DNA of 47,260 nucleotides from a virus. Shown one piece after another: positions 2,167-35,136 of this stretch; positions within the stretch are counted from its first letter, which is position 1; the number at the start of each line of letters is the position of its first letter. Below the pieces are notes generated by a model that searched no databases, was not told the origin of the DNA, and saw only the letters and a list, made by a program, of their open reading frames with translations. The stretch is from IMG/VR virus record IMGVR_UViG_3300037119_001799, positions 1 to 47,260 of that record. One strand, 5' to 3'. The position numbers and the translations under genes were made by a program.

Positions 2167-3002
2167 CCAACCAGGAGATACCAGAAGTGACCGACGCACT
2201 GCCGATCGAGACCTACCGCAACCGCTCGCCGGAGATCGGCCAGCTCGCCGCCGCCCTCTGCAAGGCCCAGGGCGCCATGGACGTGGCCAAGAAGGGCAGC
2301 ACCAACCCCCACTTTCGCAACGCCTACGCGGATCTCGCCAGCGTCTGGGATGCCATACGTGAGCCGCTGTCCAGCAATGGCCTGTCGATCGTGCAGTTCC
2401 CGCGCACCGTCAAGAACGGCGTGGAGATCGAGACCATCCTGCTGCACAGCTCCGGCGAGTACATGGGCGACGTGCTGTGGGTGCCGTGCCTGAAGTTTGA
2501 TGCCCAGGGCATTGGCAGTGCAATTACTTATGGTCGTCGTTACTCCGCAATGAGCATCGCTGGAATCGCGCCGGCTGCCACGGCCGCCGAAAAGGCAGAC
2601 AACGTCGGCGACGATGACGGCAACGCCGCATCCCACAAGGCCGGCCTGCCAGGATCCGCCGGCGGCGGCACCGACTTCCGCCCGCCCGGTCCCCGGCGCA
2701 TGCCGACCAACAACTATCTGGAAGACGCCAAGGCGGACGGCCTCGTGGACGAGACGCGCGCCAAGGGCGAGATGCCGGGCAAGCCCAAGGCGAACGGCGG
2801 CAACTCCGTCAAGCGGGCTGAGTGGTGCGCCAAGGCAGTCGCCTACTTCAAGACAATCCCGCCGCAGAAGGAGCTGGAGGACTGGTGGCAGAAGGAGACA
2901 GAGAAGCTCGAAATCATCGAGCACGCCATGCCGGCGGAGTACGACCGGCTGGTCGCCGAATTCGATCGCGCCATCGAGCGCTCAGCAACGAAGGCCAAGT
3001 AA
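2163..3002 (+). CDS. erf: ERF-family single-strand DNA annealing protein
   Basis: A 279-residue protein of the ERF recombinase family. The signature is in the first 150 residues: 'AALCKAQGAMDVAKKGSTNP' followed by HFRNAYADLASVWDAIREPL, then 'GLSIVQFPR', and 'GIGSAITYGRRYSAMSIAGI', the conserved end of the ERF core. ERF proteins (P22 Erf type) bind and anneal single-stranded DNA for phage recombination and genome circularisation. The middle (residues 150-220) is Gly/Pro-rich linker and the C-terminal part is helical and charged. The start overlaps the exported-protein gene (ATGA) with AAAGGAAAG as ribosome binding site. No RecE-type exonuclease is seen; the following gene is the usual type of partner found beside such annealases. 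Confidence 0.9.
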   Translation: MTNQEIPEVTDALPIETYRNRSPEIGQLAAALCKAQGAMDVAKKGSTNPHFRNAYADLASVWDAIREPLSSNGLSIVQFPRTVKNGVEIETILLHSSGEYMGDVLWVPCLKFDAQGIGSAITYGRRYSAMSIAGIAPAATAAEKADNVGDDDGNAASHKAGLPGSAGGGTDFRPPGPRRMPTNNYLEDAKADGLVDETRAKGEMPGKPKANGGNSVKRAEWCAKAVAYFKTIPPQKELEDWWQKETEKLEIIEHAMPAEYDRLVAEFDRAIERSATKAK

Positions 3003-3616
3003 TGGACAACCGTCATCACAACATGCCGCCCCTGGCCGAGCGCCTAGAGCTCGACCACGCCAGCCTCAGCGCCCAGGCGGCAGAGGCCGCCGCCATGGTG
3101 CCGGCCGCCCTGGATCTGATCACCTCGGACGAGGATGCCGCCGGCTACGTCGAGACCGCCAGGGCCGTGAAGGATGTCGGCGCCCTGGTCGAGGCGGCGC
3201 GCAAGAAGGAGAAGGAGTCCATCCTGCGCGACGGCAGGATCGTTGACGCCTACTTCGCCAAGCTGTCGGGCCCGATCTCCGCTGCTCAGATTCGGGTGGT
3301 CAAGGAGATCAATACCTACCAGCAGGCCAAGCTGCAGGCCGAGCGCGAGCGCGAGGAGAAGGAGCGCAAGGCGGCGGAGCTGTTCGATGAGCCGCCGCCC
3401 GCGCCTGTCATGGTGAAGGACGCCGCCAGGATCACGACGATCGGCGCCAAGGCATCGGCCAGCCGGCGCTGGGTGCATGCCGTGGTCGATCCCCTGGCTG
3501 TGCCACGTCAGTACCTTTGTGTGAACGAAGCCGCGGTTAAAGCGGCGATCGCCGGAGGCATGCGGGAGATCCCGGGGATAAAAATATTCGAAGAGATACG
3601 CACATCGATTCGCTAG
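3002..3616 (+). CDS. Recombination-associated coiled-coil protein beside ERF
   Basis: A 204-residue product starting at the ATG that overlaps the erf stop (TAATG); a longer frame from 2822 would run inside erf. Residues 35-125 are helical and highly charged, with an E/K/R-rich coiled coil (EREREEKERKAAELF). The C-terminal 80 residues hold the pattern 'SRRWVHAVVDPLAVPRQYL..NEAAVKAAI' and 'REIPGIKIFEE'. I know this layout from phage proteins encoded next to annealases and nucleases, where a helical stalk precedes a small 'VP..YL..d...i.a.i..G...IPGi.i' domain. The biochemical activity is not established. Operon position suggests it assists recombination or replication. Confidence 0.65.
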   Translation: MDNRHHNMPPLAERLELDHASLSAQAAEAAAMVPAALDLITSDEDAAGYVETARAVKDVGALVEAARKKEKESILRDGRIVDAYFAKLSGPISAAQIRVVKEINTYQQAKLQAEREREEKERKAAELFDEPPPAPVMVKDAARITTIGAKASASRRWVHAVVDPLAVPRQYLCVNEAAVKAAIAGGMREIPGIKIFEEIRTSIR

Positions 3617-3618
3617 CC

Positions 3619-4086
3619 ATGAAACACACCCCCTCGCCACGCAGCATGTCTCTTGCCGATCGGCTCAAACGCTTCTCCAAAGCAGATGCTTCTGGCTGCC
3701 ATCTTTGGATCAGCACTATCTCGAAACGAACCGGCTACGCACAGATCAGTTGGAAGGGCGGAAATAGAAGCGCCCATCGTATGGCCTGGGTTTCTGCTCG
3801 CGGCCCTATCCCGAAAGGGATGCAGGTTTGCCACCGCTGTGATGTGCGTCACTGCATCAACGTCGATCATCTTTTCCTCGGCACCCACAAAGACAATATG
3901 GCCGACAAGACAATGAAAGGACGCGCCCCAAGCGGATCGCGTAATGGGAACAGCAAGCTATCTGACGATCAGATACTTGCTATCCGTGCTGCACCAACGG
4001 GATATGGCACAGGCCTGCCGCTGGCAAAGCAGTATGGAGTTACAGCCGCCGCCATTAGTTATGTGCGGCGAAAATCAACTCGTTAA
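3619..4086 (+). CDS. HNH endonuclease (HNH_3 type)
   Basis: A 155-residue protein with a clear HNH core: AHRMAW at 52-57, CHRCDVRHCINVDHLFLGTH at 71-90, then DNMADKTMKGR. Cys71, Cys74 and Cys79 could bind structural zinc, and His84 and His90 sit at the HNH metal positions. After the core, 'SKLSDDQILAIRA' with 'LAKQYGVTAAAISYVRRK' is a helix-turn-helix found at the end of many free-standing phage homing endonucleases. It follows the ERF partner by only two bases and has no good ribosome binding site. It may be a mobile insertion in the early operon rather than a packaging or recombination nuclease. Confidence 0.85.
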   Translation: MKHTPSPRSMSLADRLKRFSKADASGCHLWISTISKRTGYAQISWKGGNRSAHRMAWVSARGPIPKGMQVCHRCDVRHCINVDHLFLGTHKDNMADKTMKGRAPSGSRNGNSKLSDDQILAIRAAPTGYGTGLPLAKQYGVTAAAISYVRRKSTR

Positions 4087-9606: not shown

Positions 9607-12600
9607 CTATGGCTGCGGCCTGAACACTGACATGGCCGATTCCTGCTTTGCTGCGTTCAGCTCGCGGATGGTCATCTGCTTTTCCGCGGCGCTCATCTCT
9701 CTGTCGTTTTCTACGCGCCGGACCTTCTCGTTGATCTTGCCTTCTCGCTCGATGACCTTGGTGAACTGACGATACTTCTCGATCAGCGGCTCGTTCCGCT
9801 CCATGTAGGACTCGAGTTCCGCTGCCGGCCGCCCCTGCTTCTTCAGTTCTTTGTAGGTGTTGTAGGCTTCCTTGATGGAATCGCCCTGGTTGTAAAGCTG
9901 GCTGATAAAGCGGCTGCTCCCACGCTCCGAGCTGGGTGTCTCCGATACGATGTTCTGGCTGAGCGCTCCTACCCAGTCCTTGGCCGGACGCGTCGGCTCA
10001 TCGGACAGGCCGCGCAGCGCGACATCGACAATCTGCGATGCCGTGTGGCCAAGCCAGCCGGTGTAGGCGCGCAGCAGATAGTCGAGCTGGACCGGGGAGT
10101 AGGTCGATGCCTCCTCGCCGCCAAAGAACCGCGCCACCCTGTTCAGTCCCTCGCTGGCACTGCGCGCCGCCATGCTCGATTCGCTGGTATAGCGAGCCTC
10201 GGGGCGCACTCGCTCAAGGCGCTGGCTCTCGATCGGCGAGCCGGTGCGGCTCTCGTTCCTGGCAACCTCAAAGATGGGTGACAGGGCCTGCGGCACGAAG
10301 CCCAGCATCATGTTGTCCTGGGCGATCGAGAACATGTTCTTGCGCCAGCGATTGAAGTCCATGTCCTTGTCGTACATAGCCATCGCACTGATCGCCATCA
10401 TGCGGGCCAGGGATCCCACTTCGAAGCCCATCGGGATCCGCCACTCTTTGCCGAACGCCTTGAACCAGAAGTTGGAATTCTGGTCGTACTCGTCGCGCGC
10501 CAGGTAGTCTTTGTCGTCCTTGTAGATCTCGTGCAGTGCCAGGTTGGCGGTTGCCAGGACGATGACGCCCTGGGTCAGGCGCCACGCAGCCTGCTTGCCC
10601 AGCTTGCCGCCGACCGCCAGGGAGATGCTCTCATCGGCGTTCGCTGCCGAACGCCCCGCCTTGTAAATGCCCTGCAGCCACGCGCCGGTGAACGGCCGGA
10701 GCTCGAGGATGGTGCGGACGATCGGCGACGCGCCCTTCAGCGTGATGTCGTTAAGATCCCGGGCTGCGAACGATGCCATGTCATGCGGCACGCCGTCCTT
10801 GATGAGCTGGTCGTAGAACGCGTAGCGGTTCACGCCCTCGGTCATGCCAACCAGCTTGGCGTAGGCCCCGCCGATTCGACTGAAGTAGCCAGCGAATGTC
10901 TTCAGCTTGTCCGGCGAATCGAGAATATTTGCGACCGTGGTGTCCTTGACGCCGGCATCGTTGAGCGCAGCGAAGCGCACCACGCCACCGCCGGCGATCG
11001 CATCGGCCATCTTCCGGCTGATGTTCTCGGGCCGCTCCTGGCCGGCAACCGCATAGGCGACGTTCAACAGGTCGCCCTTCATGTCATGGGCAGCAAAGCC
11101 GCGGACCCAATTGCTGATGACGTTGCGATTGATGTTGGACACCGCCGAGGCGTTGATCGTGTCGCGGATTAGGTTCTTCACCTGGAAGATGGGGTTCATC
11201 GCCGTGCCAATCTGGAGCACCTTCTTGGCAGCTCGACCCAGGCCCATGAGCGGGAGATCCGACTGCATGTATTCAAGCGCGGAGATCGCCTTGAAGATGA
11301 ACGGATCCTTGACGTGGAAGTAAACCTGCTCGCCGTCTTCCATCACCCAGACGGTCTCGGCCTTGGTCTTCTTATCGATGACGCTGTCATATTCCTGGCG
11401 CGTCAGCCGGGTGACGACATTGCCGTTCTGCTCGGCCGTGGTCAGCACATTGGTCGCCGCCTGATTGCGCAGCGACGCATCGATCATGTGGCCCCAGTTG
11501 CCGAAAGCATTCTCCCATAGATCGTTGTTGAGCTTTTCCTCGCCGCCCTTCAGCGTCTTGAACGCCTCCTGCTTGACCATGCCGAACTTGTTGGGAGCGC
11601 CGGCGAACGATCGGCTGTTGCTGTCCTCGACCACGCGATAGAACGGGACATAGAACGGGTTTTCCCACAGAGCGTCGATCTTGCCCTGGGCCGCGGCGTG
11701 TTGCGCGTCGCCCTCCGCACCAGGGGCGAAATCTGTGCGCGCAACCGTGCGCTTCAGCAGGCCACTCTTCACGGCGAGATCCAGGGCGTTCTTGTTGAAC
11801 GTCTCGAGCCGCGCCAGGGCGTCACCGTAGGCGGTCCTGCGATCGGTCGTGGTGGATCCGTCCAGCATCTTCCATTGGCCGGTGAGCTGGCCGTCAGCCA
11901 GTGTCTTGAAGGCCTCGATCGTAGGTGCATCCATCAGGCGTTCGCGGTCTTGCGTGGCCAGCCGATCGGCCCGCTCGCCAGCCACCCACCAGATGAAGTC
12001 AGTGGCCTCGCCCAGCTTGTCGAGTGGCCGAATTAGATGGTCGATCACGCCGCCGTTCTTTTCGTCCATGCGGTAGGCCTGACCGTCGATCTTCAGCGTG
12101 CCCCAGCGCTTGAACATCTCGATCGCGCCGGCAACGGAGTTGGCAATGCGCAGCCCGACATAGCCCTCATCATCGCCTGCCGACTTCACGCCGATGTAGG
12201 GATCGAAGACCTCGCGGACGACTGCCTTGCCGGCAGTGCTGCGGTTGTCCCACATCTGCCGCGCGGCATTGATCAGTCCGGTGGCTTCCGGTGCGGCGCG
12301 AGCTTTCAGGAATGCCGCCTTCTGCTCCGCCGTGCGCGGGCGATTGGGGTTCTCGCCCATGTTGGCGGGGTTGCGCGGGCTGAACAGCGTCTGCCCTTCC
12401 TCGACCGCGGCGGTGCGCAGAGCGTCGGTGATCTCGAAAGAGTGGACCGGCGCCTCTGTCGTATCGCGCATGTACTCCAGGACCAGCGAGCTCTTCTCGC
12501 CCCTCGTCCAGGCCTGGTACTGGCGATCACGCGTCATGCCCTGGAACTCGGGATGCTCGCCAACCCAGGCGCTGAAGTGTTCCCACGACCGGGTGCGCTC

Positions 12601-15600
12601 AGCCCCGAGGGTATCCATCTCGGTCTTGGCGCCGAACTTCTTGCCGGCCTTGTTGGCCAGGATCGGGAGCTGCTTGTCGTAGAAGGCGTCCATGCCTTCG
12701 CCGCCGACCTTGAGATCCTCGCTATGCAGGCTGCGAACGGCATACGGATTCTTGGCGAGATCAGGCTCGGGCTGCGCCAGGAGCCTATCGGCTGCGTCCT
12801 GGCCGACATAGTCCGGCAACGTCTCGGTGGTGACGTGCTGCATGTCAACGACTGCGCTGCCATTCCTGTCGTGGGCAGTCAGGCGCATGTTGTCGCCAGT
12901 GCCGTGCAGCGTCACATCCGAGATGTGCTGGCTGAGATCGAACCGATCGGCGACGGTCTTGCCGACATCCCAGGTGACGCGGTCGTAGCCGTTCTCCGCG
13001 GCGTAGCGGATCACCCGCTTCATCGCGAGCTCGGGCCATGTCGTCTTGAATGGCGCGTCAGGAACGCCCCCTGTGCCCTTCTCGTTAGCTTGATAGGCGT
13101 CGTAAAATTCCTGCGCCTTGGCCAGATCTTCCGGCGTATTGAACTCCCACCCTACTGGCCCATCGCGGGCGATCGCCATCCGCGCCTCGCCAATCGTGTC
13201 GAAGCCCAGCTTGTCGTTCGCCATTATCATTACGTTCAGGCCATCCTTGGATGCCTGAAGGCGCTCGGCTGCATCAGGTTCGCCGGCGGCCCTATAGCCC
13301 TTCTTCTTGCCGGCCTGATGCCAGTCGCTCTGGATCTCGGCGACGTGCAGCACCTTCTGGTTGCCCATCCAGCGATCGTCAAAACGGATGTGCGCCAGGA
13401 CGTTGGGCTCCTGCCAGTGGGATCCCTTGAACGCACCCTCGTCGCCGAACTTCGCCGGCATATCTCCGGTCAGTGCATGGACCCGATCGAACTCCGCCTG
13501 CTCCTCCGGTGTCCACTTCTCGAATGCACCTTCCAGGTCGCCGTACTTTTCGATCATCTTTTTGTTGAAGGCCTGATACTCGGGCTCAACCTCCTGCTTG
13601 ATCGGCAGCGTCAGCAGCAGCTCGCGGTAGTTCTTGCCGCCGCCCAGCGTCCACTCTTCGTATTTCGGCTGGCCTCCTCCGGTCTTCCGATTGATCGCAT
13701 CGAGCGTATTGAATTCCTGCAAGATCCTCCGAGGCACTTGACCCTCGGGCATCTGGTCGATGAAGTCCTGCAGCTCGCCAAACCGATTGCGCTGCTGGGG
13801 CGTCATCGCATCGCCCTTGATGGTCTCGGTGACCTTGATCTCGTTGGCGCGGATGTAGTCGAGCAGCTCTTCCTTGGTGACGCTCTTGGGCTGCTTGGCC
13901 AGCCAGTCCTCGACACCCACCCATTCACGCTCCTCGGCCTTGATGCCGGGCATGTTCTTGATGGTGGCAGCCCACTGGCCTGGGGGCGCCTTGGTCTGCT
14001 TCAGGCCTTCGACGCCGCGCGTCAGCGCACTGTAGAAGACAGGCGCCGGCTCCCGGGCTTCCCCGGTCCTCGGTGAAAAGAGACTGTCGCCGCTGACCTC
14101 TAGTCGGTTGACGCCGGGCGTACCTTCTTCCGGGGTGGAGATGCCGGTGCGGAGGGGGTCGCGGAGGTACGGGCGCGCATCGCCGCGATCGCGTTCCTGG
14201 ACGCCCGCGCTATCTCCGCGTCCGTCATCATCACGTCCGCCGGATCGTCCGGGTCGTCGCTCCAGGGAGCGTAATACATTGTCGACTTCGGCATCTGGGA
14301 TCCCCTTGCTACGGGCCAGCTCGCGCTGCGCGCCGGCGTAATCGACATTCACTTCATCTGCGGGTATGCCACCGAGCTTCTCGTACAGGGTCTTCTCGGG
14401 ATACCACCAGACTGCCTGCAAATCGGCGTTGGTCAGTGGCACCTCGTGATACGCCGCAATACGGCGGGCCTGATTTATAACATCCCGCATCCACACCCGA
14501 TCGGCACCGGACTTGGGCGACTCGTTGATCCCGCGCAGACCATGTAACAACCTTTCCGATGCGAAAACAACCTCGCTTTTCTTCCTGGTGCCGTCGTCAT
14601 ATTCAGATCGGAAAGTCCTGAAATCCTTCTCGTGCTGCCTCACGGTCTGCTCGGCGACCTCGATCAGCCCCGGCGTGTCCTGGGGAACCTTCATGCCCTC
14701 CTCTTCCAGGGCATTAGTCATGCGCGCTGTTTGCTTGGTCAGATCCTGCTTGCCGACCAGGGTGCCGGTCAGCCTGCCCCAGGCGCGCATGAACCAGAGA
14801 TCCATCGTCACCGGATCGTAGTTGCCGCTCAGATTCTGGAAGAACCCCTGGCCGATCTTGGGGCCCAGGATGGCGGAACCAAAAACCACGGTGTCGACGT
14901 TCTCGCCGCCGATCTTGTAGCCCATCTTCTTGAGATCACGCACCGTCCACTCGGTGTTCATAAACTCGATGACCTCGTCCATCGTGCCCTTGGCGTCGAG
15001 CAGGCCGTTCAGCTTCTTGAAGTTGGTGTTCATCGGCCCTTTTTGTTTCGACCCCAGGATGTCGGTGGGGAAGCGGCCGGTCTCCTTGAAGTGTTCATAG
15101 ATCGGATCGGTCAGGTTGGCGTTGTTCTGCACCTTCTCGCCCTGGCTGGTGATGGCCAGGGTCGCGGTGAAGGCAAAGAGCTGATGCGGATCGTCCTTGA
15201 GCTCGGGGTGAATAACCTCGGCGATCGCCAGCGCCTCCTTGAACGAGCTCGTGTACCAGTCCGTAGCAGCGCCCCGCTCGTTGAAGGCGCGAATCGCCTC
15301 GGCCGCAATCACCCGGGCCAGCATGCGATCGGTCTGGGGATTGGGCCCGGTGATGCGCCCGGTCGGAATACCCATCGCGATCAGGGCCTTCTGCCCTCGG
15401 ACCATCAGCTCTCGGGCAATGTCCTGCGTCTTGCGGGATCTCGGTTTCATAGACGGCGTCGCGGGATCCAGGATGTCGTTGACGCTAAGCGCGTGCTCCT
15501 CCGGCGTCGGCTGGATCGGCCGCGGCGAGAACAGCGTGTCGCCTTCCAGGGTCTCGTTGAACACCCGGGCAATGTTCTGCGCCGTGATGTTCTGGACGTC

Positions 15601-18600
15601 AGCCCGGGAGATCGTCTTCAGGTCCGGCCCGTCATGCTCGACTATCAGGGCGTTCAGGCCGGCATCCCTGGCGCCACGCACGATCGCCTGGATCTGCCGC
15701 GGTGTCGGCACCACCGTGGCGTGGACAATCCCGGAATTGAAATCGACGCGCACTGCGCCGCTGCGATTCATAAACTCAGCCATCGCTTCGGATCCGCCGG
15801 ACTCGACCAGTTGCTGAGCAATGTCACGGTGATCGGTGTTGCGCGTGTCGCCCAGGTAGTCGCCCCTCCTGGCCACGAACCGATCGCCCTGGCGCACGTA
15901 GTCCTGCGCCTCGTGCCGGCCGGACAGGTCGAGCATGGCGCCATCGCTGGTGATGTATCCCGCCTCCCGGGGATTGTTGGTCAGGCCGGTGAGCGCCTTG
16001 GCCCGCTCGGTGAGCTCGGCGGCGTCGATCGGATCCGCCGGCCGCCGCGGGGAGAACAGGGATCCCTGATCCGGCCCTCCCTCTTTGTCGTATTTCCCAA
16101 AGCCATATCGCTCGTAGGCTGATCCCGCCATGGGACTGCTTGGCGGCGTCACACCCTTGGGCGTGGTTGCAAGCAGGTCTCCCTGACGTTCACCGCCGAA
16201 CAGTGGCAGCTCTTCCGCACCCTGCTGTGGCGCCCCGCTAACCTGCCGGCCGCGCATGCCAACCTCGGCGAGCTGCCGATCGGCGACACGCTGGCGGGCG
16301 GCGAGCTCTTCGCGCGTGGCTTCGCGGGTCTCGAGGAGCGTCGGCCCTGCCGGCTCGGTGTCGGCGCGCCTGGGCGAGAAGACTGTGCCGTCGTCTAGTG
16401 CATCCGGAGCTCTAACATCCGCGCCGCCGCGCGCAGGTTCCGCGCCAGCTTGCGGGCCCGTGGGCTGTTCTCCTTGGCGAGCAGCTTCTCCGCCAGGACG
16501 CGCAGGTATCTCGGGCGCTGCAGCGGCTTCGAAGGGGATGTCGATGTCGGGGTCGGAGTCTCGCTTGCCGCCACTGTAGTGCTCCTCTAGCAGGTCAAAA
16601 ACTTGAGCAAGGAGAGGATCGCTGCCCTTTTCAGCCTTCAGCATATCGTAGTTATTCGTCTCTGGATCGCCATAGAAATTCTGGGCGTCAGCCGTCTCCT
16701 TGGTCATCCAGCGATCAGTCGCCCTGTCAAAGGCTTGCTGAGGTGTCTCGCCCTCTTCCCGCCGGTAGAGCTGGGCCACTTCGAAGACGGCATCCTGGGG
16801 AAGGCCCTGGTTGTTGACGGCGTCCTCGATCAGATCTCCCGCTTCCTCGCGCATGACCTGTTCGCGCGCGGACTCCGTGACCATGCGCTCGTTGGCCACT
16901 GACGCCGGCGCCAGATGCCCGCCGCCCTCCTGCCTGATCGGCTTGCCGCTGCGGGAGTAGCGGCTCATGTCCTCCCCCGCCCAGATCTCCTCGCGCGCCG
17001 CGCGGACCTTGGCCGCATAGTCCGAGGCCGTGGGCTCCACCGCAGCGACCGGCTCGGCTGCCGCGGCCGGCTCCACCATGGCGCGGACAGCCGCCTGCTC
17101 ACGCGCGAGCTGGGGAGGCGCTGTAGCGCCCTCTACGATTGGCACAGTTGGCGCTGGAACGGGCGCAGCGGCCTGGATGGGAGTGGAGGGAGCCACCTCC
17201 ACAGGGGCCACTGGCGGGGCTGCGACAGGCTCTCCCGTGATCGGCCGCGTGGCCGCGGGGACCGGCTCCGGCATGACGGCCCGGCCGCGCACCGGCGCCG
17301 GCGGCGCTGCCTCACCCGTTACTGGAGCAGCCGGCTGTCCAGCCGCGGCTGCCGCCCGCTCCATCCCGGGCGACGGCGTGCCAACCGCGGCGGCATCGGC
17401 CATCCGCTGCTGCTCGCGCAGCATCGCCTCCTGGACCCGCACCATGTCGGGGCTGGGCTCGGTGGGGTTGAGCATGGCATCGAGCTGCTGGCGGAGGTCC
17501 GCTACTTGAGCTGCCGCCCGCTTGGTTAGGCCGGCCTCGCCGCGGCCTCGTGGCTTGGCGACGAGCCCGGCGATCTGCTCTTGCAGCGCCTGCGCCTCGG
17601 GGCTGGCCGCCGCCTCCTGGCGCCGCTTCTGATCGAGCTGCTCTATCCAGCTCTGATAGGCCTCCATCCTGACGCGGGCTTCGTTGTAGGGCTGGCCTGG
17701 GATGGGGCTGATCCGGCTCGGTGGCAGCGGATCCAGGAAGCCTTCCGGCATCCAGGGCGGCGGCAGCTCGGGCGCCGGCGCGTTAAAGGGATCCGCCCCT
17801 TGCTCACGGCGGGCGTTCTCCCGCATCGCCATCAGGGCGGCGTTCTCTTTCTCCGCCTTGCTGCCCCAGCGATGGGCCTCGATTTGGGCATAGACATCGT
17901 GGACTTCGCTGAGGTTCTTGAGCCAGATCTGCGACTGTGTCGCCACCGGCCCGCCAGGCTTGATGAAGAATTCCTGCAGCCGCCCCATCGCCTCACGAAT
18001 GCCGGCGATCAAATCCTTGACCACTTGCTTGGCAGCATCGACGCCGTAGCGCGCTTCGACGTAGTCGACCACCTTGACGGCGTAGGTCGGGAAGTGCGGT
18101 GTCTCGCTCCCGACTTCGGCAATCATCTCCTTCACCATGAACCGCTTCACCGCGGCTTGGTGGAGTGCGTCGCCTTCCGCTCCCTGCGGATAGCTCGCCC
18201 GCTTCGGCGCTTCAGCCCCGGAGAGCCGCTCGACGTGAGCTAGCCCCTCTGGCGTCATATTCTGTTCGACAACGCGATAGAGAACCTCGCCCAGGTTGAC
18301 CCCGTCTGTGCCGGGAACCACCGTCTTCTCGAGGATGTGCCCCCACTCGTGGCGCGTGACCTGGGCAGCGTTGCGCTGCGTGTTGTTGGTCAGGAAGATT
18401 GTGTTGGGGAACAGCCGGTTGTTGACCACGCCGTCGAACGGGATGTTGGCATCGTTCTCGATGTAGACGACGTCGATCCCCTGCTTGCCGTAGACCTCCT
18501 TCTGGACCTCGGCGAGCTGCGCCGGGATCGTGTCGGGGCGCTCCTTGCCGTCCCACGGCTTCAGGTCGAACTCGGTCTTGCCGTCCGGCATCTGGTAGAC

Positions 18601-19965
18601 GTAGGCGCCATCAGGACGCTGGAAGACATCGCCGCCGTTCAGTACGCCCTTGTCTTTGAAGATTCCCAGGATGTCGGCCTGGGCGATCTCCATGGGATCC
18701 TCGGTGTCCCGGGCCCTGGCGCGGAGCTCATCGATCTCGACATCGGTGATCAGCCGGCGTGCGGTGTCGATCGCGCCGTCGACCGTGTCCTGGCCCATCA
18801 CCTGTTTGCCGACATCGTCGGGCGTCTTGGGTGTCGGTGTGCGCGGCGACGTCTCGGTATCGGCTTTCCCACCGCGCCCATGGAAAGCAGACGCAGCTAT
18901 ATCCGCCGGCGCGAACAAGGCCTCAGCCACACCGGAAGCGGCGACCTTGCCCCAGTTCATCTTGTCATCGAGGATGGCCTGCTTCGTTGCCTCGCCGCCG
19001 GCGGATAGCGTGCCCTGGCCGCCAGCCTGTAGGGCAAAATTCTTGGCCATCGTGGTGGCCACCGTCTTGCCGCCGGCGGTAACGCCGCCCAGGCCTCCGG
19101 TCGCAGCGCCTGTCACGGTGTCGATCGCCATGGCCACGCCAAAAGCCTTGTCGATCTCCGCTTTGATCTCTGGATCCGCGAGCGCTGCCTTGACGGCATT
19201 GATGTCGCGAGGATCGACCTTGTGCTTCTGCAGGATCTCGATGGCCTGCTGGCCGCCGCCTGTTGTCGCGCCGATCGCGCCGCCAACGATCGCACCGCCG
19301 GCCACGCCGCCCAGGGCGGTGCCTACGATGATCGGCACCATGGCGGTCGCCGAGCCTCCGGCCAAGCCGCGCAGCACGGCGCCGGGGTTCTTCATCACCT
19401 CGCCGAGCTCGCCACCCATGAAACGCTGCAGCGGCTCGTTGACGGCCAGATCCTTGAGCTCCTTCGAATCCGACACCAGCGCGCCCAAGCCTTTTTCGTA
19501 GCGCGCCCGCGCGTCGGCCAGCTTCTTTTCAAGCGCCGGGATCTGTTGCTGACGATTCTGCGGCATAAGGCCAAGTTGCGGCGGTATATCAGGATCACCC
19601 TGCTGGAAGACCTCGATCTGCTTCCTGAGGTTTTCCATCTCCTGCGCGGCGGATATCACCACCGTGCTGGCCATCGCCTGCATCGTGCCGTAGTAGCCGG
19701 TCGCGAGATCGCTGCCCCAGGTGCCGCGCGATTCCTCCGGCGCTGTGAGCTTCTCCGGCTTGGGCGGCTCGATCGGCTCCGGCTTAGGCGGCGGCGGCAG
19801 CAGGTAGTTCAGGATGTCTTTGTCGCGAAAGCCCTGCTCGCGCGCTGACTTGATCTCATCCGGATTGACGCCCATTGCGCCGGAGACATAGTCGACAATA
19901 TCGCTGTCGCCGTAGCCCTGCTTGCGAGCTGCGCCGATGCCGTAGGGATCCAGATCATCGGCCAT
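9607..19965 (-). CDS. Giant polyvalent-type virion protein with zinc metalloprotease
   Basis: A single uninterrupted 3452-residue frame. Residues 1-50 hold two 'AR.QG(Y/F).D.DI..Y(V/L)' repeats. Residues about 204-241 are a Gly-zipper-like hydrophobic stretch that could cross a membrane. HEWGH at 539-543 with KEMIAE at 612-617 is a zincin metalloprotease site (HExxH plus a distal Glu). About 820-990 is Pro/Ala-rich linker. Five FSPR motifs (Phe at 1196, 1304, 1479, 1963, 2528) separate modules. The 1990-2340 region carries 'GQWAATIKNMPGIKAEE', 'HVAEIQSDWHQAGKKKGYR' and 'DRVTWDVGKTVADRF'. The end (about 3060-3330, 'FAARDLNDITLKGA', 'LRPFTGAWLQGIYKAGRSAA') matches what I know as LPD38. These parts are typical of phage polyvalent proteins thought to enter the cell with the DNA. 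Substrate unknown. It starts four bases after the preceding stop. Confidence 0.85.
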   Translation of the reverse strand: MADDLDPYGIGAARKQGYGDSDIVDYVSGAMGVNPDEIKSAREQGFRDKDILNYLLPPPPKPEPIEPPKPEKLTAPEESRGTWGSDLATGYYGTMQAMASTVVISAAQEMENLRKQIEVFQQGDPDIPPQLGLMPQNRQQQIPALEKKLADARARYEKGLGALVSDSKELKDLAVNEPLQRFMGGELGEVMKNPGAVLRGLAGGSATAMVPIIVGTALGGVAGGAIVGGAIGATTGGGQQAIEILQKHKVDPRDINAVKAALADPEIKAEIDKAFGVAMAIDTVTGAATGGLGGVTAGGKTVATTMAKNFALQAGGQGTLSAGGEATKQAILDDKMNWGKVAASGVAEALFAPADIAASAFHGRGGKADTETSPRTPTPKTPDDVGKQVMGQDTVDGAIDTARRLITDVEIDELRARARDTEDPMEIAQADILGIFKDKGVLNGGDVFQRPDGAYVYQMPDGKTEFDLKPWDGKERPDTIPAQLAEVQKEVYGKQGIDVVYIENDANIPFDGVVNNRLFPNTIFLTNNTQRNAAQVTRHEWGHILEKTVVPGTDGVNLGEVLYRVVEQNMTPEGLAHVERLSGAEAPKRASYPQGAEGDALHQAAVKRFMVKEMIAEVGSETPHFPTYAVKVVDYVEARYGVDAAKQVVKDLIAGIREAMGRLQEFFIKPGGPVATQSQIWLKNLSEVHDVYAQIEAHRWGSKAEKENAALMAMRENARREQGADPFNAPAPELPPPWMPEGFLDPLPPSRISPIPGQPYNEARVRMEAYQSWIEQLDQKRRQEAAASPEAQALQEQIAGLVAKPRGRGEAGLTKRAAAQVADLRQQLDAMLNPTEPSPDMVRVQEAMLREQQRMADAAAVGTPSPGMERAAAAAGQPAAPVTGEAAPPAPVRGRAVMPEPVPAATRPITGEPVAAPPVAPVEVAPSTPIQAAAPVPAPTVPIVEGATAPPQLAREQAAVRAMVEPAAAAEPVAAVEPTASDYAAKVRAAREEIWAGEDMSRYSRSGKPIRQEGGGHLAPASVANERMVTESAREQVMREEAGDLIEDAVNNQGLPQDAVFEVAQLYRREEGETPQQAFDRATDRWMTKETADAQNFYGDPETNNYDMLKAEKGSDPLLAQVFDLLEEHYSGGKRDSDPDIDIPFEAAAAPEIPARPGGEAARQGEQPTGPQAGAEPARGGADVRAPDALDDGTVFSPRRADTEPAGPTLLETREATREELAARQRVADRQLAEVGMRGRQVSGAPQQGAEELPLFGGERQGDLLATTPKGVTPPSSPMAGSAYERYGFGKYDKEGGPDQGSLFSPRRPADPIDAAELTERAKALTGLTNNPREAGYITSDGAMLDLSGRHEAQDYVRQGDRFVARRGDYLGDTRNTDHRDIAQQLVESGGSEAMAEFMNRSGAVRVDFNSGIVHATVVPTPRQIQAIVRGARDAGLNALIVEHDGPDLKTISRADVQNITAQNIARVFNETLEGDTLFSPRPIQPTPEEHALSVNDILDPATPSMKPRSRKTQDIARELMVRGQKALIAMGIPTGRITGPNPQTDRMLARVIAAEAIRAFNERGAATDWYTSSFKEALAIAEVIHPELKDDPHQLFAFTATLAITSQGEKVQNNANLTDPIYEHFKETGRFPTDILGSKQKGPMNTNFKKLNGLLDAKGTMDEVIEFMNTEWTVRDLKKMGYKIGGENVDTVVFGSAILGPKIGQGFFQNLSGNYDPVTMDLWFMRAWGRLTGTLVGKQDLTKQTARMTNALEEEGMKVPQDTPGLIEVAEQTVRQHEKDFRTFRSEYDDGTRKKSEVVFASERLLHGLRGINESPKSGADRVWMRDVINQARRIAAYHEVPLTNADLQAVWWYPEKTLYEKLGGIPADEVNVDYAGAQRELARSKGIPDAEVDNVLRSLERRPGRSGGRDDDGRGDSAGVQERDRGDARPYLRDPLRTGISTPEEGTPGVNRLEVSGDSLFSPRTGEAREPAPVFYSALTRGVEGLKQTKAPPGQWAATIKNMPGIKAEEREWVGVEDWLAKQPKSVTKEELLDYIRANEIKVTETIKGDAMTPQQRNRFGELQDFIDQMPEGQVPRRILQEFNTLDAINRKTGGGQPKYEEWTLGGGKNYRELLLTLPIKQEVEPEYQAFNKKMIEKYGDLEGAFEKWTPEEQAEFDRVHALTGDMPAKFGDEGAFKGSHWQEPNVLAHIRFDDRWMGNQKVLHVAEIQSDWHQAGKKKGYRAAGEPDAAERLQASKDGLNVMIMANDKLGFDTIGEARMAIARDGPVGWEFNTPEDLAKAQEFYDAYQANEKGTGGVPDAPFKTTWPELAMKRVIRYAAENGYDRVTWDVGKTVADRFDLSQHISDVTLHGTGDNMRLTAHDRNGSAVVDMQHVTTETLPDYVGQDAADRLLAQPEPDLAKNPYAVRSLHSEDLKVGGEGMDAFYDKQLPILANKAGKKFGAKTEMDTLGAERTRSWEHFSAWVGEHPEFQGMTRDRQYQAWTRGEKSSLVLEYMRDTTEAPVHSFEITDALRTAAVEEGQTLFSPRNPANMGENPNRPRTAEQKAAFLKARAAPEATGLINAARQMWDNRSTAGKAVVREVFDPYIGVKSAGDDEGYVGLRIANSVAGAIEMFKRWGTLKIDGQAYRMDEKNGGVIDHLIRPLDKLGEATDFIWWVAGERADRLATQDRERLMDAPTIEAFKTLADGQLTGQWKMLDGSTTTDRRTAYGDALARLETFNKNALDLAVKSGLLKRTVARTDFAPGAEGDAQHAAAQGKIDALWENPFYVPFYRVVEDSNSRSFAGAPNKFGMVKQEAFKTLKGGEEKLNNDLWENAFGNWGHMIDASLRNQAATNVLTTAEQNGNVVTRLTRQEYDSVIDKKTKAETVWVMEDGEQVYFHVKDPFIFKAISALEYMQSDLPLMGLGRAAKKVLQIGTAMNPIFQVKNLIRDTINASAVSNINRNVISNWVRGFAAHDMKGDLLNVAYAVAGQERPENISRKMADAIAGGGVVRFAALNDAGVKDTTVANILDSPDKLKTFAGYFSRIGGAYAKLVGMTEGVNRYAFYDQLIKDGVPHDMASFAARDLNDITLKGASPIVRTILELRPFTGAWLQGIYKAGRSAANADESISLAVGGKLGKQAAWRLTQGVIVLATANLALHEIYKDDKDYLARDEYDQNSNFWFKAFGKEWRIPMGFEVGSLARMMAISAMAMYDKDMDFNRWRKNMFSIAQDNMMLGFVPQALSPIFEVARNESRTGSPIESQRLERVRPEARYTSESSMAARSASEGLNRVARFFGGEEASTYSPVQLDYLLRAYTGWLGHTASQIVDVALRGLSDEPTRPAKDWVGALSQNIVSETPSSERGSSRFISQLYNQGDSIKEAYNTYKELKKQGRPAAELESYMERNEPLIEKYRQFTKVIEREGKINEKVRRVENDREMSAAEKQMTIRELNAAKQESAMSVFRPQP

Positions 19966-23059: not shown

Positions 23060-23541
23060 TGTTCGCCTCCAGTGATCACCACTTCGTTGAGCGCGGTGTC
23101 GCGGCGTGACGCAAGCCGATCGGCTTCGTCGGTAAATTCCTGCTCTGCCTCGGCAACCGTGGTGGCTGATGTCGGGAAGAGCATCGTCATGTGAATGTCG
23201 GTGACTGCAGCGATCACTTGCTTGCGGTTGGCTGCAGCAGGCAGCACGGCATAGCCGGTGATGCGCTGGGTATCTTCGCCGGTCCACACCATGGCATCAC
23301 CATGGATGACCAGCACCGTAGGAATCTTGATCAAGGCTCCGGTGATCTGATAACCCGCCGGCAGCAGCATCGTGCGCGCATACAGGCCTGCATGCAGGAC
23401 GTGATGCATCTTGATGTCGATCTGCGGCTGCTCTTGGAGTTGACGTTCCTCGAGTCTGTAAACCTGGGCAATGGCTTTCCTGCTCATCGCCGGGATGCTG
23501 GCCGTCTGCATCAACTGGCGGCGCAATTTAGCCTGGCCCAT
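23056..23541 (-). CDS. Phage protein, possibly cupin-like fold (161 aa)
   Basis: After a helical N-terminus (KLRRQLMQTASIPAMSRKAI), residues 45-115 alternate strands: 'IDIKMHHVLHAGLYARTMLL', 'PAGYQITGALIKIPTVLVIH', 'GDAMVWTGEDTQRITGYAVL', then KQVIAAVTDIHMTMLF. This order (HHVLHAGLYARTM.LPAG....G..ik..tv.vi.G......) resembles small cupin-like (RmlC-type) proteins of phages, with His46, His47 and His50 at the usual metal positions. No enzyme activity can be claimed. It overlaps the GNAT gene by 14 bases and the next gene by four. Confidence 0.6.
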   Translation of the reverse strand: MGQAKLRRQLMQTASIPAMSRKAIAQVYRLEERQLQEQPQIDIKMHHVLHAGLYARTMLLPAGYQITGALIKIPTVLVIHGDAMVWTGEDTQRITGYAVLPAAANRKQVIAAVTDIHMTMLFPTSATTVAEAEQEFTDEADRLASRRDTALNEVVITGGEQ

Positions 23542-24040
23542 GGCGCACCTTCTTGAAGAACACCCGGTTGACCTCGGTGTAACCGCACTTCGGCAGAAGC
23601 TTAGAGAGGCTGCCGCCCATCGGTGCGCTGATCAGCAGACCAGGCGAGCCCATGGCGATAGCATGCTTCTCGGCCTCGGCAATCAAACGAAGACCGATGC
23701 CGCCTTTGCGGTGAGCGGCGGCGACAAAGACGCTCTCGACTACCGCGACGTTCACGCCGTAATGCGGCAGTAGACTGATCAGCATCGACAGGAAGCCGAC
23801 AAGCTCACCGTCTTGCACTGCCGCGAAGACATGCAGAACGCCGGCCTGGTGGAGCTTCCGATAGTTCTCGACCTTGGCGTCGTGCGGTGGCATCCCGTCG
23901 ATCGCCGTCTCGGCAGCATACTCCGCGATCAGAGCCGGGAAGCTTGGCCAGCCCATGAGCAATTCCCAGTCGATCAGATGCACGCCATCCCAGATCATGG
24001 CTGGCACTGCCGTCGCCGTGAGGGTTTGGGTGGGTTCCAT
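23528..24040 (-). CDS. GNAT-family N-acetyltransferase
   Basis: The start chosen is the ATG at 24040, which overlaps the previous stop as TAATG; a GTG at 24055 is an alternative. The product has 170 residues. 'GVLHVFAAVQDGELVGFLSM' is the strand pair before the acetyl-CoA site. 'NVAVVESVFVAAAHRKGGIG' with LRLIAEAEKHA is motif A, where the pantetheine-binding loop reads R-K-G-G-I-G. 'GSPGLLISAPMGGSLSKLLP' with KCGYTEVNRVFFKK is the C-terminal half. The acceptor is unknown. It sits inside the virion protein block, beside a cupin-like protein, so it may modify a virion or host protein. Confidence 0.85.
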   Translation of the reverse strand: MEPTQTLTATAVPAMIWDGVHLIDWELLMGWPSFPALIAEYAAETAIDGMPPHDAKVENYRKLHQAGVLHVFAAVQDGELVGFLSMLISLLPHYGVNVAVVESVFVAAAHRKGGIGLRLIAEAEKHAIAMGSPGLLISAPMGGSLSKLLPKCGYTEVNRVFFKKVRHGPG

Positions 24041-26064
24041 TAGTAGTTGAGCCACATATTTGGGGCGAGCCAGTTGATGCCAATCTGGCCCCCGCCCAGA
24101 GCCTGTTCTGATATGCCGACATCCCTTATGGTTTTCAGAGCATTGGCCACATTAGTGATGATGTTGTTCATATGCTGGGTCTTCGCTGGCCCATCGAGAT
24201 CTGCACTAGAGGCAATAGCCGACATGGCTGTCATCGCTTCCGAGTATATTTGCGCCGCACCGTTGGATGTCTCGAGCAGCATCTTGTTGTTATTCGTCAT
24301 TTGAGTGATGCGCTCGTCGTAGTATCCCTTCTGCTTAATGTTCTCGATGTTGCCCTGGTTCGTCAGCCGCTGGATTTCCTTTTGGGTTTCATTGTTCGAT
24401 GCAGCGATGATCCGTTTCGTTGCATCCTCCCGTTGGGAGATCGTCAGGTTCATATCCCTCTGGATGTTCGCTACGGCGACCTGGGTCGTGTAATTCATTT
24501 CCGCCACGGCCTTGTTGCCCGCGTTGGCTCGCTCCTGCGTGCCGAACGATGTCTGCTGCTGCACCCAGGCGAGGTGCTGCTGAGTGGCAGCCTGGCTGCT
24601 CTGGACCCAGCGCGCGGTCGCGTTGTTCTTATCGGCAACGGTGAGCTGGGTATCTTTCTGGATGTTGGCGATTCCCGTCTGTGCCGCGTTGTTAGCGTTT
24701 GCCACGGTCAACGCGCCAAGGTTGGCCTTTGTCTGCACGTCGAGGGCGTTATTTGCCTGAATCTTGGCGATGGCGTTTCGGGTTGCATCTTCACGCGCCT
24801 GGATCTTCTCCGTCGCGGTGATGTTCATCCCGGCAATCATCTTGTCCGTAGCATTACCGGCTTGCTCGACGGCCAGCGCACCGGCTGCCTGCTTGTCGGC
24901 GACAGTCAAATTCGTCTGTTGCTGGATTCTCTCAAGGGTAATCTGAGTTTGGTTGTTAAGCTGACTCGCCTTCCAATCAAACTCGATCTTCTTATTTGCG
25001 GTTTTGTCCTGAAGCGAAGCAATTGCCTGATTGCTCAGCGCCTGCGCGGTAGCAACGTCGAGATCTCCGCGCGCATTGATGCCGGCAACTATCTTGGCCG
25101 TCTCTCCCTGCTTGCCCGCGACATCGAGATCCCCGCGTGCATTGATGTTAGCCACTTCTTTACTAATATCGCTGATCATCCCCTGCACGATGATGGCGGT
25201 CTGCTGCTTCTTGCCTTCGACATCGAGTGCCGAGTCCGCCTGGATGTACGCGATCATCTCGGCCGATCGATTCCGCTTGTCCTCGGCTGACAGGGTTGTG
25301 CTGGCATTTATATTGGCAACGAACTTCGTGGCATCCACCTTCGCGGCCTCGGTGATAAGAGCCGTGGCTGCCCGCTTGTCTTCCGCCGACAGTGTCGTGT
25401 TGGCGTTCACCGCCGCGATCCACTCGTCCTTCCGTGCATTCCTTTCGGCAATACTCAGGCTGGCGTCAGACGCTATCCACGAAGCGTACTTCTGGGTGTC
25501 GCCCTGGATCTTGGCGATGTTGGTCGAGCCCTGGATCTGCGCCGCCGTCATCGACTCGCCGCTGATGATCTTGGCGTTCTCGATGGCTGCGGTGTTCTTT
25601 GCCCCGGCCGTGAACTCGAGCGCCCGGTTCTCTGCCGCGTAGGTGTTCGTGGCGGCGTCGGCGTAGGTCTTGGCATCGGCGGTGGCGATCGGCGTGGCCG
25701 CCGTATAGAGCGCGGTCTGGCCGGCGTTGACGCCCGCGGTCGAGTTAATCAGACCGCGCGTGTTCATCATCCTTCTGGCGTTCGCCTCGGCCTGCTCCAT
25801 CAGCGGCGAACCAGACTTGATGATCTTGCCGATCTGGCCCTGGACGGTCTGCTCGTCCGTCACCTTGAGCGCATCGGGATCGTAGCCAACCGCAGGAGCG
25901 GCCGGCGTGTCCGGTATCACCACAGGCGGCGGCGGCGTGGCTGTCGGCTGCGCGTTGTCGTTGATCAGGCTAGGAGGCGGCGGCGGCGTAACGTCCGGCG
26001 TCCCCGGATAAGGCGGGGGAACATAGGTCGGAGGAGTGGGGACGGTGGTGGGTGCAACGGCCAT
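24040..26064 (-). CDS. Repetitive helical virion protein with Pro-rich head (674 aa)
   Basis: Residues 1-60 are Pro-rich and disordered (PTPPTYVPPPYPGTPDVTPP). From about 150 to 560 the chain is an array of roughly 25-32-residue helical units sharing '(V/I)A.I....(D/T)L.VADK...(T/A)', for example 'VANINARGDLDVAGKQGETA', 'IANIQKDTQLTVADKNNATA' and 'VANIQRDMNLTISQREDATK'. The last 60 residues differ (SADLDGPAKTQHMNNIITNV and a Trp/Asn-rich end). Such arrays make long rods or bundles, as in tail-needle or ejection-tunnel proteins. It lies right after the tail-fibre gene. The exact virion role is inferred. Confidence 0.65.
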   Translation of the reverse strand: MAVAPTTVPTPPTYVPPPYPGTPDVTPPPPPSLINDNAQPTATPPPPVVIPDTPAAPAVGYDPDALKVTDEQTVQGQIGKIIKSGSPLMEQAEANARRMMNTRGLINSTAGVNAGQTALYTAATPIATADAKTYADAATNTYAAENRALEFTAGAKNTAAIENAKIISGESMTAAQIQGSTNIAKIQGDTQKYASWIASDASLSIAERNARKDEWIAAVNANTTLSAEDKRAATALITEAAKVDATKFVANINASTTLSAEDKRNRSAEMIAYIQADSALDVEGKKQQTAIIVQGMISDISKEVANINARGDLDVAGKQGETAKIVAGINARGDLDVATAQALSNQAIASLQDKTANKKIEFDWKASQLNNQTQITLERIQQQTNLTVADKQAAGALAVEQAGNATDKMIAGMNITATEKIQAREDATRNAIAKIQANNALDVQTKANLGALTVANANNAAQTGIANIQKDTQLTVADKNNATARWVQSSQAATQQHLAWVQQQTSFGTQERANAGNKAVAEMNYTTQVAVANIQRDMNLTISQREDATKRIIAASNNETQKEIQRLTNQGNIENIKQKGYYDERITQMTNNNKMLLETSNGAAQIYSEAMTAMSAIASSADLDGPAKTQHMNNIITNVANALKTIRDVGISEQALGGGQIGINWLAPNMWLNY

Positions 26065-32271: not shown

Positions 32272-32994
32272 TTACGCTACCGGCGTCGGCGTCGGCGGTG
32301 TTTCCGGTCCCGGCGGCAGATTGCCGAACAGGAAGCCGACAAACGCCTTCAGCTTCTCGATCTGCTCTGGCGTGATCGGCGGCTTGGGCGGCGTGGGCTG
32401 TGGTCCCGGCAAAGTGTTGTCGACAACCGGCGGACCACCGGGGAAGCCCGAGCCGCCACCCGGCAGAGAACCACCCGGCCAACCCGGCACCGTAGGCCAG
32501 CCCGGCGAGGGCTGCGGTCCCGGCAACGAATTGTCTGGATAGACCGGAATGTAGATCGGATGGGTCGGCTCGAGGCCCGATTCCGGCGGTGGAGTGATCG
32601 GGATGTAGATCGGATGCGACGGATGCGGGAAACCTTCAATGCCACCCGGCAGGCTTCCACCCGGCCATCCCGGTACAGTCGGCCAACCTGGACGCGGCGG
32701 CTGCGGACGAGCCCACGGCGGAGAGTAGCCCGGATCGACCGGACCTCCCTGACCAGGGAAACCGCCACCACCGGGCAGACCACCCGGCCAGCCAGCAATC
32801 GGCGGCCCAGCACCGCCACCGCCACCCGGCAGGCTTCCACCTGGCCAGCCTGGAACGGTTGGCCAACCCGGATGCAGCGGCGGCCCCGGCTGACCCGGGA
32901 ACGGCGGCTGTGGACCAGGCAGCCCATGATCAGGATGCGGCAACTGGTTGGGGTCGACTTCGTACCCCTGCACGATGAAGTACTTGGCAGCCAT
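32272..32994 (-). CDS. Pro/Gly/Trp repeat protein in the head cluster (240 aa)
   Basis: The N-terminal 15 residues (MAAKYFIVQGYEVDP) look ordered. Then follows a Pro/Gly-rich chain with three near-identical copies of 'PGWPTVPGWPGGSLPGG' and two copies of 'HPIYIPI/V' flanked by Pro-rich spacers. It is not a strict Gly-X-Y collagen. The last 45 residues include a short helix 'TPEQIEKLKAFVGFLFGNLP'. CAAAAGGAGCAAAC gives a strong ribosome binding site. Its place among capsid genes suggests a flexible surface decoration or a scaffold for fibrous appendages. No family is recognised, and the repeats are also present in the DNA, so length may vary. Confidence 0.65.
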   Translation of the reverse strand: MAAKYFIVQGYEVDPNQLPHPDHGLPGPQPPFPGQPGPPLHPGWPTVPGWPGGSLPGGGGGAGPPIAGWPGGLPGGGGFPGQGGPVDPGYSPPWARPQPPRPGWPTVPGWPGGSLPGGIEGFPHPSHPIYIPITPPPESGLEPTHPIYIPVYPDNSLPGPQPSPGWPTVPGWPGGSLPGGGSGFPGGPPVVDNTLPGPQPTPPKPPITPEQIEKLKAFVGFLFGNLPPGPETPPTPTPVA

Positions 32995-34056: not shown

Positions 34057-35136
34057 TTAGTTGGTGAGAACCTTGGAGCCGACATTTCCGACTGCCATCC
34101 AACCTGGGTTTTCAATCATCACGACTTTCCACCAGATCGTGCCGCAATAGCCGCGCTGGCCAAGCGGATCGCTCTTCGACTTTTCGCCAGGAGCGAGATA
34201 GGTCGGATCCAAAGCCGACAGACCACGCACCGCGATCTGGCTCCAGGCGTCCTGTGCCGTCACGATGAACGGATAGACGTCAATGTTGGCGCCGGTCGTT
34301 GACGCGTACTGGCTCGAGGTCGACGCGACCGTGGCGCCGGCGTTCTGCAGCGACGGCAAATCCGGCGAGGTGATGAAGCGGAAGCGCTCGATCTTGCCGA
34401 TTTCGAATTCCATCGGCTTGCCGCTCGCGTACCGCTCGACCGGAGTGAAATTCGGAATGTCCCGAATATCCGGCTCGAGATCGGTGTGGCAGTAGACGGT
34501 GAAGCCTTCGGCCACGGCGTCGGTGCCGTACTGGTTGCTCGGCTTCAGCACGCGATTGACCGGCGTGCCGTGATTGGCCTGCAGGTTCTTCGCAATGCGG
34601 CGCACCATGTTCAGGCTGAACGACCCGTTGACGGTGCTGACGCTTGTGCCAGTGCCTCCGTAGTACTGATTGGTACAGGCGCGGAGCTGTCCGTAGGCGA
34701 TCTGCTCGTTGACCAGCGTCACCCGCTCGCCGACTTGCTTGATCATCGCCTCTGGGATGTCGTCTTCGTACAAGTGATAGGTCTTGTCCGAAAATCCGTA
34801 GAGACAACCGTACTGCTGGACGACCACGGTGATGTCCTGCGCGGTCATCGAGTCGGGCGCCGGCGTCACACCTTCCGAGATCTGATTGGCGGCAGCCATC
34901 GCAAGCGAGCGATCGCCGTCAACATTCTGGAAGAATTGGTTAACGGTATTGAAATTCGCCGCGGTCGCGCCGTAGGGCACCCAACGCCTGGCGACGTAGG
35001 TGTCGGAGTTGTTCTGTGGCATTGGCACCTGGCGGCCGGAGCGGCCGAGGCACTCTCTGGGTACAGCATGCTTGAGAATCTGACCCTTGAATTTATCGAT
35101 TCGGCCGGGTTGTAGGCCATAGGTCTGCATTGCCAT
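34057..35136 (-). CDS. Major capsid protein, N4-gp56 type
   Basis: A 359-residue protein. The signs of the N4-gp56 capsid family are 'KFKGQILKHAVPRECLGRSG' with RQVPMPQNNSDTYVARRW at 14-50, 'SEGVTPAPDSMTAQDITVVV' with QQYGCLYGFSDKTYHLYEDD at about 88-130, and 'AYGQLRACTNQYYGGTG' after that. The C-terminal half contains the 'FEIGKIERFRFITSPDLPSL' strand block and ends 'MAVGNVGSKVLTN'. These proteins form the capsid shell with an HK97-like fold. AGAAGGATCTCGAA is the ribosome binding site. A hairpin lies just before it. Confidence 0.9.
   Translation of the reverse strand: MAMQTYGLQPGRIDKFKGQILKHAVPRECLGRSGRQVPMPQNNSDTYVARRWVPYGATAANFNTVNQFFQNVDGDRSLAMAAANQISEGVTPAPDSMTAQDITVVVQQYGCLYGFSDKTYHLYEDDIPEAMIKQVGERVTLVNEQIAYGQLRACTNQYYGGTGTSVSTVNGSFSLNMVRRIAKNLQANHGTPVNRVLKPSNQYGTDAVAEGFTVYCHTDLEPDIRDIPNFTPVERYASGKPMEFEIGKIERFRFITSPDLPSLQNAGATVASTSSQYASTTGANIDVYPFIVTAQDAWSQIAVRGLSALDPTYLAPGEKSKSDPLGQRGYCGTIWWKVVMIENPGWMAVGNVGSKVLTN

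Follow-up and report, generated by a model that had tools for sequence, protein, structure and literature searches.

Iyer et al. proposed in 2017 that polyvalent proteins are processed into separate units by MPTases, citing the DdrB protein of phage P1 (PMC5512222), and the processing of these widespread proteins, together with the sites at which it would take place, has been an open question since then. As cited in that report, DdrB is proteolytically processed before packaging; the N4 vRNAP, which contains an HExxH domain, is packaged uncut, an observation that counts against self-cutting (PMC5512222). LPD38, a domain associated with polyvalent proteins, is stated there to be phage-only. Another giant protein, gp25 of Escherichia phage PTXU04, is required for efficient plating (PMC11879866). 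No repeated junction motif was found in PMC5512222, from whose text the words 'linker' and 'interdomain' are absent, and no published junction or substrate mark for polyvalent proteins was found in the open-access literature searched.

We report the analysis of a giant polyvalent protein encoded by an entire IMG/VR virus record of 47,260 bp, which we refer to as the window. The protein carries a short repeated mark, FSPR, at the edges of its modules, and related proteins carry the same mark at the edges of modules that have been exchanged between them. We put the probability that it is a self-processing and probably ejected polyprotein, with a zincin that cuts at the marks, at about one in two.

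Results

Genome and gene order

The late genes run in the order TerS, TerL, SU10-type portal, a scaffold-like gene, N4-gp56 capsid, SU10 adaptor and tail genes, followed by GNAT, a set of small genes, the giant gene and an M15 peptidase. The podovirus-like gene order and N4-gp56 capsid described in an earlier note on this DNA are borne out by family matches for TerS, TerL, portal, capsid and adaptor (Table 1). No near DNA relative of the window was found among phage records. Just upstream of the GNAT acetyltransferase gene, which lies within the late operon, is the gene for a 674-aa protein of degenerate repeats (~IQxDxxLTxADKxxA), a possible internal virion protein; phage vB_Pun_Y3 has a GNAT gene similarly placed ahead of its giant polyvalent gene. 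A Pro/Gly-rich protein with a repeated sequence is encoded between the capsid and tail genes, and the HNH endonuclease is probably a free-standing homing enzyme.

Table 1. Features of the window; residues are those of the giant protein and coordinates those of the window.
Feature	Residues	Coordinates	Strand	Basis or remark
Giant polyvalent protein, whole frame	3452 aa	9607..19965	-	ORF
Tandem short helical motif (ARKQGYGDSDIVDYVSG / AREQGFRDKDILNYL)	8-55	19801..19944	-	sequence reading
Gly/Ala-rich hydrophobic segment	193-245	19231..19389	-	sequence
Zincin-like domain	476-700	17866..18540	-	conserved in L002, L109, L190; hhalign; AF2 order
HEWGH, zinc-binding/catalytic motif	539-543	18337..18351	-	H539, E540, H543 invariant 4/4
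KEMIAE, E613 likely third zinc ligand	612-617	18115..18132	-	E613 invariant, 617 varies
FSPR mark 1	1196-1199	16369..16380	-	sequence
Cassette 1	1200-1307	16045..16368	-	L002 1622-1701, blastp E 6e-21
FSPR mark 2	1304-1307	16045..16056	-	sequence
Cassette 2	1308-1482	15520..16044	-	unique among four relatives
FSPR mark 3	1479-1482	15520..15531	-	sequence
Cassette 3, GPKIGxGFF...TMDxW domain	1483-1966	14068..15519	-	54% to L002 1135-1621, end to end
FSPR mark 4	1963-1966	14068..14079	-	sequence
Cassette 4, NYREL...EIQSDWHQ domain	1967-2531	12373..14067	-	L002, L190, L109 homologues
FSPR mark 5	2528-2531	12373..12384	-	sequence
Constant C-terminal part	2532-3452	9610..12372	-	piece comparison, relatives
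LPD38 domain	3151-3327	9985..10515	-	PF18857, E 5.6e-30, 105 bits vs cut-off 27
TerS				PF03592
TerL				PF04466
SU10-type portal				PF23899
SU10 adaptor				PF24175
N4-gp56 family major capsid protein		34057..35136	-	TIGR04387, E 6.7e-56
HNH endonuclease		3619-4086	+	PF13392
GNAT acetyltransferase		23528-24055	-	PF00583
Degenerate-repeat protein	674 aa	24040-26064	-	
Pro/Gly-rich protein, repeated PGWPTVPGWPGGSLPGG		32272-32994	-	

The giant protein and its relatives

The giant gene is a single frame that takes up about 22% of the window, as the earlier note had it, and the Gly-rich segment and the Pro/Ala linkers lie where that note placed them. Its reading of the end of the protein as LPD38-like is confirmed by Pfam. 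Several further domains of polyvalent type had been claimed, and other blocks of the chain do recur in polyvalent proteins, but a Pfam search of the whole protein gave no domain besides LPD38. The PHROGs matches are confined to the last 900 residues, and no RNA polymerase domain was found in Pfam, PHROGs or NCBIfam. Constant parts and four cassettes are joined in one chain, which is encoded among virion genes and includes a known polyvalent-associated domain; LPD38, size, late-gene position and multidomain relatives agree in supporting its assignment to the phage-type polyvalent proteins, the class already suggested for it. The protein is probably delivered into the host with the DNA, which would be consistent with the gene position and with the literature on the class (PMC5512222).

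Judged by its residues, the Gly/Ala-rich segment is possibly membrane-active. The tandem motif at the N-terminus follows the pattern A[RK]xxGYxDxxI..hL, present twice in the window protein and in that of L190 (L190 8711-8900), and the N-terminus of L002 has instead another short motif, of the type IHEFPAGTxxxVI; such N-terminal motifs could be interchangeable packaging or ejection (virion) signals.

Homologues of the C-terminal part were found in the C-terminal parts of giant proteins of Achromobacter phage CF418P1, Aeromonas phage phiARM81mr, E. coli phage PTXU04 and Vibrio and cyanobacterial phages, and a profile of this part gave no match in the PDB. The first full-length relative is the 3341-aa protein of L002. 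The zincin segment is rare: besides the window it is common only to L002, L109 and L190, and the clade is absent from 398 genomes of one order. Neither tblastn of the N-terminal part against phage records nor searches of viral contigs with whole-protein and zincin-only seeds returned a match. Limnohabitans phage DC33 (PQ492659.1, L004) is labelled Inoviridae, yet has a 39-kb genome and a 3125-aa polyvalent protein, and this label looks wrong.

The zincin-like domain

Both motifs in which the earlier note had recognised a zinc protease, HEWGH and KEMIAE, are present. The residues H539, E540, H543 and E613 are invariant across the four relatives, which are 30-43% identical here, and residue 617 is E in two of the four and D in the other two. 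The zinc site had been assigned to His539, His543 and Glu617; both histidines are conserved, but E613 is the likelier third ligand because it is invariant, whereas position 617 alternates between E and D. The resulting pattern resembles the NExxxD pattern of thermolysin. A profile built from the four members aligned in hhalign with a second clade of polyvalent HExxH proteins (L082, L035, L047, L069 and L103) with a probability of 80 and an E-value of 1.3e-5, the HExxH columns falling upon HExxH and E613 upon the Glu of SEMVAD. Two low-confidence AF2 models (pLDDT 60-64) have the expected order of helix, strands, HExxH helix and Glu helix, and Foldseek found no match for either at E<=0.001. None of the four members matched a Pfam peptidase family at E<=1, and searches of the segment against Pfam, NCBIfam and PDB sequences returned nothing usable.

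The conserved HExxH and E, the order of secondary structure and the profile match support a zincin-like segment, named in this way and not after a peptidase family because there is no curated Pfam peptidase match. The zincin fold itself, a 3-stranded sheet with an N-terminal helix and two active-site helices, is putative.

FSPR marks and exchangeable cassettes

FSPR occurs five times in the window protein, against 0.018 copies expected from composition, and five times in that of L002, against 0.021. Nothing else in the frame departs as far from chance as these five copies, which had escaped the earlier note. They are encoded by five different 12-base sequences, with Ser as TCG, TCC, TCA or AGC and Arg as AGG, CGG or CGC, and the mark codons vary in L190 and L098 as well; selection therefore acts at the level of the protein. 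L190, which was retrieved solely by homology of its zincin and before its marks were inspected, proved to have FSP[RK] five times, and the marks of L109 are FSPK, FSPR and HSPR. In total, there are 17 copies of FSP[RK] in the 11,724 aa of the four zincin-clade proteins, as compared to 7 in the 334,724 aa of 160 other relatives, and none in the other likely genes of the window. We count the four proteins as one case because they belong to one phage lineage, the N4-gp56 capsids being 69-74% identical across the three phages with the same zincin.

The four related proteins were cut at [FH]SP[RK] and the pieces compared by blastp. The pieces align end to end, the N-terminal pieces matching one another and the C-terminal pieces likewise, and the middle pieces differ in order and content, being swapped, reordered or unique among the four. 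The marks therefore coincide with the edges of modules: uniform sites lie between end-to-end pieces, as in a self-processing polyprotein. The homologue of cassette 1 in L002, for example, occupies another position in the cassette order, and cassette 4 matches L002 1702-2283, L190 1722-2288 and L109 814-1311 over almost its full length. In L002, residues 2284-2454 form an ART-PolyVal domain (PF18760, E 3.2e-12; 20-162 of 171 aa) with FSPR on both flanks.

The domains of cassettes 3 and 4 are frequent in phage polyvalent proteins, the first having 450 relatives in viruses and the second at least 546, and neither has a Pfam family (cassette 3 gave a weak match to DUF7178 only). The former, GPKIGxGFFxNLxGxFxxxTMDxWxxRxWGR, is widespread in viral giant proteins and occurs on some bacterial contigs; the latter, NYRELLLTLP...EIQSDWHQxGxKxGY...ITPxMR, frequently comes last among the domains of shorter proteins.

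Versions of the mark in other polyvalent proteins

We scanned 166 giant relatives without bias for all repeated 4-letter words, with one wildcard allowed. Besides repeats of the ART domain, the top words were FSRxQ (six copies in L082), FSPR (window and L002; corrected E ~2e-7 for the window) and FSPK (L190). The repeated words VYHGT and KSAIGN were set aside as stemming from repeated ART domains. With a reduced alphabet (F=Y, K=R, D=E), [FY]SAR[DE] of L103 and [FY]Q[KR]RE of G622 join the top words, [FY]SAR occurring six times and [FY]Q[KR]RE four times; FSNR occurs three times in L098 (P 4e-6). G622 was likewise retrieved by zincin homology alone, to that of L103, and only then showed its four marks, which stand beside ART-like and other blocks.

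One homologous junction, the end of the NYREL...QSDWHQ domain (...ITPxMRxxVxxGxPLF), continues as FSPR, FSNR, FSAR or FSRAQ in different proteins, and the version found there agrees with the marks elsewhere in the same protein. Of 85 within-protein pairs, 40 agree in the residue x of [FY]SxR, where 8.2 would be expected, a value reached in 0 of 2000 shuffles. Without the window clade the agreement is 20 against 4.05 expected (0/2000 shuffles); when L103 is removed as well it falls to 5 against 2.3 (144/2000) and is not significant. In total there are five cases, the FSP[RK] lineage, L082, L103, L098 and G622, which were partly found post hoc and of which L082, L103 and G622 are perhaps not fully independent because a related zincin clade is common to them. 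Each of the eight proteins with marks contains just one HExxH, and it always lies upstream of the first mark. A zincin does not imply marks, since many polyvalent proteins with HExxH have none.

A single universal junction motif was rejected: the loose pattern G..[FY]S.?R is only mildly enriched over all relatives (51 copies against 29.3 +- 6.0 in shuffled and 29 in reversed sequences), and our claim is accordingly confined to marks that are specific to each protein. The word [FY]ADGG occurs four times in L162 (residues 535, 1267, 1991 and 2445), partly following duplicated HELQH domains, and FxxGG also comes after that domain end in L112, L132 and L144. This is possibly a further junction word, but we dropped [FY]ADGG of L162 as a claimed mark since it follows repeated domains.

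Discussion

The constant N-terminal part of the giant protein holds the helical tandem, the Gly-rich segment that may act on membranes, and a single putative metallopeptidase of zincin-like type (H539, E540, H543, E613). Exchangeable cassettes and the constant LPD38 part come after it, with FSPR (family FSP[RK]) at every junction. We propose that the whole is a self-processing polyprotein. The marks would be recognition sites at or beside which the resident zincin cuts, in cis or in trans, either before packaging or after ejection, and the cassettes would then be released to act as separate effectors inside the host. A new cassette could be inserted wherever both of its edges bear the mark.

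The marks may instead remain uncut and serve in docking or sorting, through a factor for packaging, ejection or unfolding, or they may cap units that fold independently. Their position between modules, often after Gly, would suit this, as would the fact that in one cassette part of the mark region, GxPLF, forms a domain end conserved in some 70 relatives. We consider it unlikely, as a low-complexity linker and unrelated domains are followed by this mark too, and a plain cap would not switch its version in step with the other junctions of its protein.

The same switching bears on who would read the marks. A host protease or a separate phage protease could cut them, leaving the zincin to act on host proteins; the same mark data speak for this, and Iyer et al. 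also admit MPTases as effectors on host proteins (PMC5512222). A resident reader is favoured because the mark is uniform within a protein and changes between proteins, a variation from phage to phage that is harder to reconcile with host proteases, and no further likely gene of the window phage carries FSP[RK]. We therefore regard cutting by another protease as distinctly unlikely.

The earlier note had seen in this protein a good candidate for an undescribed injected effector; on that reading the protease would be directed at a host target, and the protein's own junctions would be nothing special. The conserved HExxH and E and the place of the gene within the virion module accord with it, but it leaves unexplained the marks, the exchange of cassettes and the constant placing of HExxH ahead of the first mark; the repeated FSPR junctions point first to processing of the protein's own chain, and this reading as a whole is very improbable. 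It is hardly credible that the marks are remnants of DNA recombination or of a recent internal duplication that also shuffled the cassettes: the reordering falls exactly at the marks, but their codon diversity, with Ser as both TCN and AGC, and the lack of DNA likeness beyond the motif among the copies (in the codons compared) largely rule out a recombination hot spot.

Returning to self-processing, we suggest tentatively that polyvalent proteins in general carry protein-specific punctuation codes (FSP[RK], FSRxQ, [FY]SAR, FSNR, [FY]Q[KR]RE), each read by the protein's own zincin, between exchangeable cassettes that are released as effectors. If this is true, mark and protease would co-evolve and a foreign mark would go unread by a given protease. 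The question of processing becomes approachable with short peptides, because the marks give exact predicted sites alongside a resident protease. Furthermore, where profile searches find nothing, the marks offer a means of dividing giant phage proteins into their domains, and the arrangement would be a natural example of how a single chain can supply several proteins.

Viral polyproteins have uniform sites between their products and encode the protease in the same chain; the likeness is one of analogy and not of homology, and the protease class, the swapping of cassettes and the phage context differ here. PTXU04 gp25 is homologous in its C-terminal part (23.8% identity over 89% of the query, E 2e-31), but has a motif of HExxxH type and no marks of FSPR type. 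N4 gp50, the vRNAP, is similar in its length of about 3500 aa, its HExxH domain and large helical C-terminal part (PMC12633501) and its N4-gp56 capsid; it differs in its RNAP domain, which was not detected in the window protein, and in being packaged uncut. In StenR_269 a virion RNAP is annotated within the late virion gene set. P1 DdrB, which we liken to the window protein from its published description only, is also a giant polyvalent protein with a zincin, though a C-terminal one; PMC5512222 gives neither its cut site nor the protease. The class described by Iyer et al. (PMC5512222) agrees with our protein in being a very large, multidomain late-gene product with LPD38, an HExxH MPTase and unrelated enzymatic cassettes. 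Whereas processing by the MPTase was itself proposed in 2017, the repeated punctuation of the junctions, uniform within a protein and present in protein-specific versions, appears to be new, judging by the open-access papers searched.
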